Below, in pieces: positions 6,937 to 15,625 of a stretch of DNA of 36,813 nucleotides (the first letter of the stretch is position 1; each line of letters opens with the position of its first letter). The stretch covers positions 1 through 36,813 of the forward strand of contig CANLKN010000032.1 of assembly GCA_947491475.1 (NCBI GenBank). Direction: 5' to 3'. This stretch comes from Akkermansiaceae bacterium (GTDB lineage Bacteria > Verrucomicrobiota > Verrucomicrobiia > Verrucomicrobiales > Akkermansiaceae). The notes beneath the pieces are model-generated. The model worked only from the letters and a program-made list of their open reading frames with translations, made no database searches and was not told the origin of the DNA. The position numbers and the translations under genes are program-made.

Positions 6937-7602
6937 ATGCAAGCACACGATCAAGACGACCTCCAACGTATTTACGCGCAGCGATTTTCATCACAGATCG
7001 AATATCGCAACCGTGTGTGGAGTATCCTGGTTAATCATTTTTTCTCAAAATACATCCCGCAAGACGCCTCGGTTCTTGATCTCGGATGCGGCTACGGAGA
7101 GTTCATCAACCATGTGCGGGCTACCCGCAAATACGGCATGGACTTGAATCCTGATTCGCCCCGGCACTTGAAACCGGATGTTAAATTCCTGTTACAAGAT
7201 TGTTCGCAACACTGGGATATTCCGGATCATTCGCTGGATGTGGTATTCACCAGCAATTTCTTCGAGCACCTGTCGGATAAGACGGCACTCGGAAAAACCC
7301 TGGATGAAGTGCGACGCTGCCTGAAACCAGGAGGCCGGATCATTGCCATGGGGCCCAATATCAAATTCTTGTCAGACGCTTATTGGGATTTCTGGGATCA
7401 TCACATACCTTTGAGTGATTTATCCCTCAGGGAAGCTCTTGAAATACGGGATTTCTTCATTGAAGACTGTGTGGACCGCTTCCTTCCCTACACAATGTCG
7501 AGAAAGCGGCCAGTGCCCGATTTTCTCATCAAGATCTATCTGGCAATCCAGCCGGTATGGCAGTTTTTCGGCAAACAATTCTTGGTGGTCGCGCGTTCAT
7601 GA
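6937..7602 (+). CDS. Class I SAM-dependent methyltransferase
   Basis: A 221-residue methyltransferase of the Methyltransf_11/25 type. Motif I is 'VLDLGCGYGEF' (46-56), with the acidic ribose-binding residue D69 at the end of strand 2 ('YGMDLNPDS'). Further motifs are 'SLDVVFTSNFFEHL' and 'RCLKPGGRIIAMGPNIKF'. The substrate is unknown; its place between a polyprenyl-phosphate glycosyltransferase and a GT-C gene suggests methylation of a glycan or glycolipid. Its stop codon overlaps the next start (ATGA at 7599-7602), indicating translational coupling. Confidence 0.9.
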   Translation: MQAHDQDDLQRIYAQRFSSQIEYRNRVWSILVNHFFSKYIPQDASVLDLGCGYGEFINHVRATRKYGMDLNPDSPRHLKPDVKFLLQDCSQHWDIPDHSLDVVFTSNFFEHLSDKTALGKTLDEVRRCLKPGGRIIAMGPNIKFLSDAYWDFWDHHIPLSDLSLREALEIRDFFIEDCVDRFLPYTMSRKRPVPDFLIKIYLAIQPVWQFFGKQFLVVARS

Positions 7603-9230
7603 AAATCACCACACAAATATCGCGCATCGTCTTTGCATTTACCCTGCTTGTCGCTATCTGGACGATGACCGTCCACCTAGGCAAGCCCCTGCTCGGCCCG
7701 CATTCGTTCCGCCAGACGCAGACGGCAATCTCTACTTATTATATGGCCAAGGACGCCACGATGTTTGCCGACTACATCACGCCGGTGCTCGGCAAGCCGT
7801 GGCGAATCCCGATGGAGCTGCCGGTCTATCAATGGCTCACCGCACGCTGGCACAACCTAACAGGCATGGCGCTCGATGCCAGCGGCAAGCTGGTCTCCGT
7901 GCTGGCATGGCTGGCCTGCATGGCCCCGGTGTGGATCCTGCTGCGCTCGTTGCGCTTTGAACGGCCTCAGATCCTTCTAACACTCGCCCTGCTTCTCTCC
8001 AGCCCGCTCTATCTGTTCTGGAGCAACGCGTTTCTGATCGAAAGCACCGGGGTGTTTCTCGCGCTAGCCATGGTCGCCTGCGTGGTCCGTGGCCATGAAA
8101 TGAAAAGCGTGCCATGGCTGGTGGCGGGCCTGCTTTTCGGCATCGTGGCCATCTTGTGCAAAGCCACCACCTGGGCACTTGCGGCAGGTGCCGGCGGCCT
8201 CTTGCTGGTCTTCCGCGATGGCTGGCCGCAGTGGCGCGCGTTGTTAGGCCGGCATGAAGAAAAGTCTCCGGGCGAGACGCCCGGGCCACGTGGCGTGACC
8301 ATACTTGCCGCCTCCTCCCTCTGCCTGTTGCTGCCATTCATCGCCGGCAAGCTGTGGCTGAGTTATGGGGATTCCATCAAATCCGCCAATCCCTTCGCCC
8401 GACAGATCCTGCTCTCCAGTTCACCGCATCAAGCCAAGTGGAACTACGGCACCTGGGAACAGAAACTCGACCCCGCGACCTGGCAGGTCATTTGGCGTCA
8501 CATCACCGACCAGTTGTTAGTTCCCTTTCCGCTGATCGGCCCGTTCCTGATCCCGCTCGTTCTGTTGGCCGCAGCCATCGCTGCTCCGCGGCGCATTCCG
8601 CTGATGCTGGTGTTTCTGGCCGGCTTCGCCGCCGGGCCGCTGGTTTTCACCAATCTCTACTATGAACACAGTTATTACTGGAGCGCCAACGGCATCTGGC
8701 TGTTGCTGGCCGTTGGAACGGCCTTGGCCGGCATCTCCGAATTCCGGCCCGGAAAATCCTGGCCGCAGTTCGCTTCGGCCGCCCTCGCGGTTCTGATGGT
8801 TATTTCCGGTTTCACGGCATGGTTCCAGCGCTTCCTACCCATCCTCACCGCACTTCCCAAACGCGAGCAAATCACCGAAGCATGGACGAAACCCGTGCAG
8901 GCCATCGTTCCACCCGGGCGAACGCTTCTCATGGTCGGCAACGATTGGAACCCCGCCGCGCACTACTATGCCGGGCGCATGGGCCTCGCCCAACCAGCCT
9001 CCGAAGGCATCCGCTTTCCCGGGCCGGAGTTTGAGGAGTCAATGAAGTTACTAGGCCCCGACGAGAAACCCGGTGCGATGGTAATTGCCGACTCCCTCCT
9101 CACGCAGGAAAACCAACCCGCCATCGCACAGATCCTGCAACAGCTCGGCATGTCCCTCAACGGCCAGCGCAGCGCCTTCGGCGTGATGTTTCCGGCACAG
9201 GATCTGCAATCCGGTACCCCGGCTGAATGA
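7599..9230 (+). CDS. Polytopic GT-C-type glycosyltransferase (ArnT-like)
   Basis: A 543-residue membrane protein with about 11 hydrophobic segments. The first periplasmic loop after TM1 reads 'LLGPHSFRQTQTAISTYYMA' (31-50), a pattern typical of ArnT/PMT-like bacterial GT-C proteins, followed by 'MELPVYQWL' (72-80). The C-terminal ~130 residues form a soluble periplasmic domain. It would use a polyprenyl-linked sugar, plausibly made by the GT2 encoded two genes upstream. The start at 7599 overlaps the methyltransferase stop; an earlier in-frame start at 7557 would overlap more and add 14 residues before TM1. A short loop at about residues 221-234 ('EKSPGETPGPRG') is encoded by a palindromic repeat that also occurs between genes in this window. 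Confidence 0.8.
   Translation: MKITTQISRIVFAFTLLVAIWTMTVHLGKPLLGPHSFRQTQTAISTYYMAKDATMFADYITPVLGKPWRIPMELPVYQWLTARWHNLTGMALDASGKLVSVLAWLACMAPVWILLRSLRFERPQILLTLALLLSSPLYLFWSNAFLIESTGVFLALAMVACVVRGHEMKSVPWLVAGLLFGIVAILCKATTWALAAGAGGLLLVFRDGWPQWRALLGRHEEKSPGETPGPRGVTILAASSLCLLLPFIAGKLWLSYGDSIKSANPFARQILLSSSPHQAKWNYGTWEQKLDPATWQVIWRHITDQLLVPFPLIGPFLIPLVLLAAAIAAPRRIPLMLVFLAGFAAGPLVFTNLYYEHSYYWSANGIWLLLAVGTALAGISEFRPGKSWPQFASAALAVLMVISGFTAWFQRFLPILTALPKREQITEAWTKPVQAIVPPGRTLLMVGNDWNPAAHYYAGRMGLAQPASEGIRFPGPEFEESMKLLGPDEKPGAMVIADSLLTQENQPAIAQILQQLGMSLNGQRSAFGVMFPAQDLQSGTPAE
8268..8294. repeat. Palindromic repeat inserted in frame inside the GT-C gene
   Basis: CCGGGCG (8268-8274), loop AGA, CGCCCGG (8278-8284) forms a perfect 7-bp hairpin. 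It is followed at once by the palindrome GCCACGTGGC (8285-8294). The core GGGCGAGACGCCCG and the following GCCAC recur at 15606-15625 in an intergenic region. In this gene the unit is read in frame without a stop. Confidence 0.75.
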
Positions 9231-12917: not shown

Positions 12918-13364
12918 ATGCCATCGACCCACCTCTCGCTGCATTTCCACGTCGTTTTCTAGACGAAGAACCGTGAACCCCGCATCGCCGCGGAATGGCG
13001 CGAACGGCTTCACGCCTATCTCGGCGGCGTGGCACGGAAATCAGGCGCAATTCCTGAGGCTATTGGCGGGGTGGCTGACCATGTTCATCTGCTACTCGGG
13101 CTGAACGCAAGCACACGCCTCGCCGATGTGGTTCGCGACATCAAGGCGGTTTCCTCGAAATGGGTTCATGACGAGACAGGCGATCGCGCGTTTGCGTGGC
13201 AGGAAGGTTATGGAGCATTCAGCATCAGCCCGTCCCACCGCGAAAACGTCCGCAACTACATCTCTCGGCAGGAAGAGCATCATCGGAAGCGGACCTTCCA
13301 AGAGGAATACTTGCAACTCCTGCATCGCTGTGGCGTGGATTTCGATGAGCGCTATCTATGGTGA
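12918..13364 (+). pseudogene. REP-associated tyrosine transposase (IS200/IS605-like Y1), nonsense-disrupted
   Basis: An IS200-type Y1 transposase reading frame of 148 sense codons, interrupted by TAG at codon 15 (12960-12962). The N-terminus before the stop, 'MPSTHLSLHFHVVF', and the residues right after it, 'TKNREPRI', are the usual family start, where a serine normally stands at the stop position. The HUH motif is intact in 'DHVHLLLGL', and the Y-containing helix 'NYISRQEEHHRKRTFQEEYL' keeps the catalytic tyrosine context. No frameshift is seen, so a single TCG-to-TAG change explains the break. Without the first beta strand a restart product is unlikely to work. It lies between inverted REP-like hairpins and between two convergent glycan genes. 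Amber suppression or a sequencing error cannot be excluded. Confidence 0.88.
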
Positions 13365-15548: not shown

Positions 15549-15625
15549 GTGGCGCGGGCGTCCCAGCTCGTCGCCATCTCTGAAGGCGAATTAAAAGAGG
15601 GCTGCGGGCGAGACGCCCGCGCCAC
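15549..15625. repeat. Inverted pair of palindromic repeat units
   Basis: GTGGCGCGGGCGTC at 15549-15562 is the exact reverse complement of 15612-15625. The right copy also forms its own hairpin, GCGGGCG/CGCCCGC with loop AGA (15604-15620), the same design as the in-gene copy at 8268-8284. The pair lies between two minus-strand genes. Confidence 0.75.

Follow-up and report, generated by a model that had tools for sequence, protein, structure and literature searches.

A palindrome that is read in frame in a glycosyltransferase gene of an Akkermansiaceae bacterium is very likely a REP that a REP-associated tyrosine transposase (RAYT) moved into a loop of the enzyme in an ancestor, and the same system would have hit about ten genes. 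REPs are short non-autonomous elements consisting of a GTGG foot and a hairpin, which would be moved by a RAYT. An unusual finding, and a stronger result than the glycosyltransferase REP, is that several RAYT genes of this genus are themselves read in frame within genes of basic metabolism.

Anatomy of the palindrome

The window, i.e. the whole stretch of 36,813 nucleotides that was analysed, belongs to a genome of 3.89 Mb in 182 contigs (G000). It contains the following features.

7557–9230, plus strand: GT-C/PMT_2-like glycosyltransferase gene of 557 amino acids, carrier of the REP (open reading frame; PF13231, E 9.8e-9)
8264–8289, minus strand: REP copy of sub-type B, in frame, with GTGGC foot and hairpin on the minus strand, GTGGCCCGGGCGTCTCGCCCGGAGAC
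8268–8284, no strand assigned: stem-loop CCGGGCG-AGA-CGCCCGG with a 7-bp stem and a 3-nt loop
8290–8295, plus strand: GTGGCG adjoining the REP, possibly the cut-off foot of an inverted partner (compare the full back-to-back pairs at C36 and C76)
12918–13364, plus strand: IS200-like Y1 transposase gene with TAG at codon 15 and flanking hairpins CCGGTGGC...GCCACCGG of another repeat family
15549–15569, plus strand: degenerate inverted partner (GTGGCGCGGGCGTCCC...), which makes 15549–15625 a REPIN-like inverted REP pair
15605–15625, plus strand: intergenic REP copy CGGGCGAGACGCCCGCGCCAC with its foot on the minus strand and an exact core at 15606–15618

The stem-loop is composed of CCGGGCG (8268–8274), AGA (8275–8277) and CGCCCGG (8278–8284), followed by GCCAC (8285–8289); letters and frame are as an earlier sequence-only reading of this DNA had given them. 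On the minus strand the unit reads GTGGC, a 7-bp stem and a TCT loop. It is thus a palindrome of 26 nt with a GTGG foot at one end, within the 20–40 nt and with the GTRG foot typical of REPs. REP feet are GTRG, and most GTAG-20 elements of Opitutus terrae have GTGG, according to the accessible text of PMC3733652. The copy in the glycosyltransferase gene ends in GGGCCAC instead of GCGCCAC, as do the copies at C18, C31, C33, C36, C76 and C131, and its CTCC start recurs at C36 and C76. At C36, C76 and C131 the REP adjoins an inverted partner, and the GTGGCG at 8290–8295 is possibly what is left of such a partner.

Within the open reading frame 7557–9230 the REP encodes residues of about 236–247 (KSPGETPGPRGV). 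The sequence-only reading had placed the encoded loop at residues of about 219–236 of the protein, a numbering that differs from that of the 557-amino-acid frame and roughly fits a later start codon. Its position between two membrane stretches agrees with the hydropathy profile, in which windows starting at residues 218–236 are hydrophilic and a hydrophobic stretch lies on each side. PMT_2 (PF13231, E 9.8e-9) was the sole Pfam match of the protein, and an NCBIfam scan of the 557 amino acids named no family. The REP unit is free of stop codons in all six frames, a property of the REP sequence itself, so that an in-frame landing would give a usable protein.

The repeat family and its other in-frame copies

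Copy numbers in the whole genome were compared with those in the reversed sequence. The exact 13-base core was found 27 times versus 0 in the control, and the 21-mer CGGGCGAGACGCCCGCGCCAC with up to three mismatches 51 times versus 0, which is a modest copy number. With up to one mismatch the 13-mer occurred 55 times versus 11 in the control, and single degenerate 13-mers can therefore be chance; inside the window alone the core at up to two mismatches was not enriched (4 matches versus 2.77 expected). The sequence-only reading had matched the hairpin to intergenic copies at 15549–15625, where we find the 13-mer core at 15606–15618 and a degenerate left copy. Inverted pairs approximately 75–115 bp apart are located at C1, C8, C13, C29, C60 and C92, and back-to-back pairs at C36, C76 and C131. 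Hence, the palindrome forms frequent inverted dimers and has many dispersed copies, both of which characterise REPs. We assign it to this class because of the GTGGC and hairpin on its minus strand and the inverted pairs that many copies form. Three REP sub-types coexist in the genome, A (GGCGGGCGAGACGCCCGCGCCAC), B (ending in CCCGGGCCAC) and C (CGGGCAGGATGCCCGCGCCAC). Sub-type B is that of the glycosyltransferase gene and occupies six other places among the 51 copies of the 21-mer.

The window and 40 fetched stretches (41 in total) were scored for open frames with coding signal, after which the open reading frames were read. We classified 12 of the 51 copies as in-frame parts of ten genes and the remaining 39, likewise scored for coding signal, as lying outside these. 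The ten genes code for the glycosyltransferase, SufD, a Clp-type AAA+ ATPase, an SNF2-type helicase, PheT, PolX, RsmE, a GT11 fucosyltransferase-like protein, PurL (two copies) and a BatD-like protein. Eight of the ten were compared with family models, each of them with a named match; the names SNF2-type and BatD-like are our own reading. Both flanks of the REP gave a strong coding signal in the genes for the glycosyltransferase, SufD, PheT, PolX and RsmE. In those for Clp, GT11 and the BatD-like protein, and at one of the PurL copies, one flank or both gave a weaker signal. The REP falls inside the span of the family match in PheT, PolX, RsmE and the Clp-type gene, and outside the Pfam match in SufD and GT11. 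Alignments to PDB structures did not resolve the small inserts, and the linker of an E. coli-type PheT aligned without a gap of REP size.

Two partners at four mismatches bring the coding copies to 14. Of these, five are read as xGVSPx-type, four as GRDARAT-type, four as VARASxP and one as GETPxP peptides, and none in the two Arg-rich frames. This bias is suggestive only, because the choice of frames was made post hoc and paired copies are linked. The PurL frame (L067, 1513 amino acids) contains, beside its two REP-coded peptides, the repeat-like peptides AHCSLLTDH, AHCSLITDH and SPSEGQPVPP, which perhaps represent a second in-frame repeat family.

The probable insertion is absent from most readable homologues

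A profile built from three homologues had matches in 50 of 384 genomes of the class. We fetched 29 homologues and measured loop length between the conserved anchors KxTT and WNYG, both of which were present in 16 and neither in 13. From anchor to anchor the region comprises 97 amino acids in the window protein and in L050, the homologue from genome G030, versus 76–85 in 15 of the 16 other readable homologues. The palindrome-bearing pair is thus 12–21 amino acids longer. The best two orthologues (L242 and L243) have 79 and 80 amino acids between the anchors, and the sole long homologue (L244) has 95, with an unrelated loop. The sequence-only reading had proposed that a mobile palindrome was inserted without loss of frame, and had named as contrary evidence the same loop without a palindrome in distant orthologues; the difference in length supports the proposal, and no such loop occurs among the 16 readable homologues.

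L050 (record CAIVXP010000255.1, from an Akkermansiaceae metagenome-assembled genome) corresponds to the G030 match by contig number and position, and is 71% identical to the window protein. It retains the hairpin (CTCCGGGCGGGACGCCTGGGC) with one G-T pair in the stem. Between the two genomes the REP segment is identical at 19 of 26 positions, the upstream flank at 60 of 90 and the downstream flank at 78 of 90. As the REP segment is thus no more conserved than the upstream flank and less so than the downstream flank, the common origin of the two loops, which we consider likely, rests on sequence type and place. G030 contained no copy of the 21-mer at up to three mismatches and, among the matches listed, none of RGRCGTCTCGYCY. 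Since both genomes carry the hairpin loop, the insertion probably predates the split of the two species.

We propose the following course of events as by far the most likely. The common ancestor of G000 and G030 would have gained the REP in frame, in a membrane-protein loop of the glycosyltransferase. Where a copy landed in frame in a loop or linker that tolerates it, the protein would stay usable with some added residues, presumably translated and neutral for the enzyme, and purifying selection would clear the other insertions. The same system would have placed single REPs in about ten genes of G000. In related species, whole RAYT units with flanking REPs are likewise read in the frames of IspG, MetH, LeuRS and CarB. 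In other REPtrons, single-stranded REP hairpins are cut by the RAYT beside the structure and the foot helps to choose the site (PMC8266576, accessible text); a RAYT would have catalysed the move into the glycosyltransferase gene.

RAYT units in frame inside metabolic genes

An open frame of 883 amino acids in G000 (contig C136, L030:396–3044, minus strand) has IspG on both sides of a Y1 match. This single frame was matched by GcpE and Y1_Tnp in Pfam and by IspG and the REP-associated tyrosine transposase in NCBIfam, and its RAYT is flanked in frame by GTGGTCGGGACAACCTGTCCCGAC and the inverse of GTGGTTGGGACAACCTGTCCCAAC. By our reading, a RAYT-like segment lies in the ispG frame of at least 17 of the 41 genomes of the genus, in G006 at another place in the gene. 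Empty ispG linkers have 15–25 amino acids (n = 5 readable; many ispG loci were unreadable with the anchors used). In metH two sites are occupied: site 1 in G050 and, at a contig break, in G035 (among the matches listed), and site 2 in at least ten genomes (G001, G004, G006, G011, G013, G015, G017, G025, G032 and G045). Readable empty linkers mostly measure 14–15 amino acids at site 1 (three have 24–26) and 6–7 at site 2. A filled metH linker comprises 236 amino acids compared to 14–15 in most readable loci, and sister species have empty sites; the metH and ispG inserts add more than 200 amino acids. Further units were read in leuS (L203, L204, L205 and L208) and carB (L198 and L207), of which L204 and L198 were also run against family models. 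L195, L191, L204 and L198 are among the units in metH, leuS and carB.

The frames of IspG, MetH (two), LeuRS and CarB each contain a match to Y1_Tnp and one to the NCBIfam RAYT model. Y1_Tnp scored above the Pfam cut-off in all five frames tested, and the RAYT model NF047646 reached 55.9–75.2 bits, below its curated cut-off of 80. The ends of the in-frame units are REP-coded peptides. Eight of the 11 ispG loci tried entered an alignment (three did not), in which NHVH is intact in seven of the eight copies and the tyrosine motif Y[IV]LxNP in all eight; in the RAYT survey, 2 of 20 stretches gave no open reading frame with the HUH pattern used. Between G000 and G016 the ispG RAYT shows a dN of 0.091 and a dS of 0.298, and the N part of IspG a dN of 0.044 and a dS of 0.632. 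Pfam and NCBIfam scans of the five RAYT-bearing frames gave no match to intein models (for L198, among the best 25 of 45 NCBIfam families). In the open-licence literature we found no report of RAYT units in frame in ispG, metH, leuS or carB.

Three side observations concern the same genes and units. A MetH query in G000 had as its best match the ispG RAYT segment only (E 1e-45; one of three matches listed), and metH seems to be absent from G000 and present in most relatives. In G031 and G043 (L209 and L210), RAYT-like segments lie, by our reading, in frame in large restriction/helicase-like proteins. One of these two proteins has repeated peptides of the ENPCP type.

The metH RAYT of G050 is bracketed by GTGGCGCGGGCGTCCCGCCCGC and the inverse GCGGGCGGGACGCCCGCGCCAC, the same REP as in the glycosyltransferase, and is for this reason the best candidate for a cognate RAYT. 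The RAYT that moved the glycosyltransferase REP would be a relative of it. Around the 17 Y1 matches of G000, the fetched flanks revealed no RAYT bracketed by the glycosyltransferase REP; the sole look-alike (L031) has five mismatches and lacks the CCAC end. The mover may therefore be lost, lie in the missing part of the genome, or act from another REP type. The Y1 gene at 12918–13364 of the window was rejected as the cognate transposase: its codon 15 is a stop, its flanking hairpins are different ones, and the IS200 model was its sole NCBIfam match (47.3 bits versus a cut-off of 55).

pheT and polX linkers and alternative explanations

A pheT match was present in 37 of the 41 genomes of the genus, and 30 loci were examined. 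Fourteen of them contain a clear REP hairpin in one inter-domain linker; for 13 of these hairpins no more than 2 of 200 shuffles did as well, and for that of L095 15 of 200. The hairpins have four stem types and a single frame (xVSPx-like), at varying distance from the left anchor. Their stem types also occur elsewhere in the same genomes, e.g. GGACGTCTCGTCC in G040 and AGGCGTCTCGCCT in G011 (among the matches listed). Linkers with a REP have 32–36 amino acids versus 32–37 in those without, i.e. they are not lengthened; either deletions followed the insertion, or the REP replaces linker sequence. On a pheT tree built without the linker, whose topology has weak support (5 of 27 inner branches starred), presence changes at least seven times (counting the decayed-looking copies L075, L091, L096 and L099), and there are 14 changes of the variant label. 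polX was matched in 40 of 41 genomes; 30 loci were examined and 24 gave anchors. Among these 24 readable linkers, only that of the present genome has a REP hairpin, and one other (L114) has a chance hairpin.

The constant pheT linker length, and REP variants that differ between species and in G001, G011, G018, G029 and G040 belong to types that the respective genome also has at other places, would suit a replacement process. In this case the REP-coded linkers would come about not by plain insertion but by gene conversion, or by an exchange that a RAYT mediates, with genomic REPs as the template. We regard replacement as unlikely, given the 12–21 additional amino acids of the glycosyltransferase relative to 15 of 16 homologues and the more than 200 of the metH and ispG inserts. 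It is more improbable still that selection maintains the palindrome for a separate role at the mRNA or DNA level, such as translation pausing, transcript stability or protein binding, and does not merely tolerate it. The hairpin does persist in G030, where two patterns revealed no other copy among the matches listed, and 14 of 30 pheT loci share linker and frame with differing stems. Yet the stem differences among species parallel the genomic REP types, as insertion or conversion would explain, several pheT copies look decayed, and presence changes repeatedly on the weakly supported tree. An ordinary GC-rich coding loop that is palindromic and resembles the genomic repeat by accident would fit the lacking enrichment in the window and the 11 one-mismatch 13-mers of the control. 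We rejected this very improbable explanation in view of the exact 13-mer (27 versus 0) and the 21-mer (51 versus 0), the recurrence of the 26-nt form with CTCC and GGGCCAC at C36 and C76, and the lack of the segment in 15 of 16 readable homologues. There is a negligible chance that the frames stem from faulty assembly or binning of metagenome-assembled genomes, most of which are in many contigs, as the same arrangement recurs in separate genomes, sister species have empty sites, and a misassembly is unlikely for the metH unit of G004, whose genome is a single 4.4-Mb contig.

Comparison with known systems

In-frame insertion of a RAYT-moved REP, our preferred reading, places the glycosyltransferase palindrome within a phenomenon that is already described. 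Di Nocera et al. (2013, PMC3733652) report, in the accessible text, in-frame GTAG REPs in many genes, most of them in the verrucomicrobium Opitutus terrae, and suggest that they code for flexible linkers; they also describe different REPs at about the same recB site in two Xanthomonas species. The palindrome studied here resembles the Opitutus terrae type in its GTRG/GTGG-footed hairpin, its inverted dimers, its in-frame copies in housekeeping genes and its occurrence in the same phylum. It differs in family, genus and gene set, and a RAYT that is itself in frame in housekeeping genes is not described in that text. Since in-frame REPs, including those of a verrucomicrobium, were published in 2013 (PMC3733652, accessible text), the claim of the sequence-only reading that such insertion was not described for this unit holds for this particular sequence only.

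That reading had also drawn an analogy to Rickettsia palindromic elements, which is apt for how the insertion works; the unit itself is a GTGG-footed REP, i.e. a member of a described class. Both are palindromic selfish DNA that codes for extra peptides in conserved proteins (PMC10969869 and PMC3733652, accessible parts). The Rickettsia elements are, in the same sources, about 150 bp long or, as RPE-4/6, CGTC-tagged without association to a transposase. In contrast, the palindrome has 26 nt and a GTGG foot, related species have RAYT units, and CGTC occurs inside the stem-loop only, not as an end tag.

To our knowledge, the RAYTs of Pseudomonas, Stenotrophomonas and E. coli are free-standing genes, whereas several RAYTs of this genus lie inside the frames of other enzymes. 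In other respects the system is similar to the REPIN/RAYT arrangement (REPtron) of those bacteria, with a foot plus hairpin, inverted pairs, a Y1 transposase with HUH and tyrosine, and REPs flanking the transposase gene (PMC3116915, PMC2817692 and PMC8266576, as far as their accessible text goes). In-frame REPs have furthermore been described inside tnpA-REP genes of subclass 2.4, where, as here, a REP was inserted without loss of frame in a peripheral region of the protein (PMC6006769, accessible part). In that subclass, as described in this part, the REP enters its own transposase gene, whereas here REP and transposase lie in host enzymes. The same part mentions that the study excluded a few proteins which were longer than expected, taking them for fusions or misannotations (PMC6006769).

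Implications

The accessible text of PMC6006769 raises the question of how and why hosts retain tnpA-REP (RAYT) genes. It may be speculated, at somewhat less than even confidence, that inter-domain linkers of essential enzymes serve the RAYTs of this genus as a habitat. The in-frame REP-RAYT-REP units of ispG, metH, leuS and carB would be expressed from the host gene and shielded against loss, because most deletions would break an essential frame, and solitary REPs, e.g. that of the glycosyltransferase, would be their offspring in other tolerant loops. This would be an intein-like niche without splicing. A genus with in-frame RAYTs in basic enzymes, and with filled and empty sites in sister species, offers a direct handle on RAYT maintenance. 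For the annotation of genomes of this group, peptides such as GAGVSPA, GRDARAT, GETPAP and VARASRP should be regarded as potentially REP-coded. More generally, the system illustrates how conserved proteins can acquire new loops from mobile hairpins.
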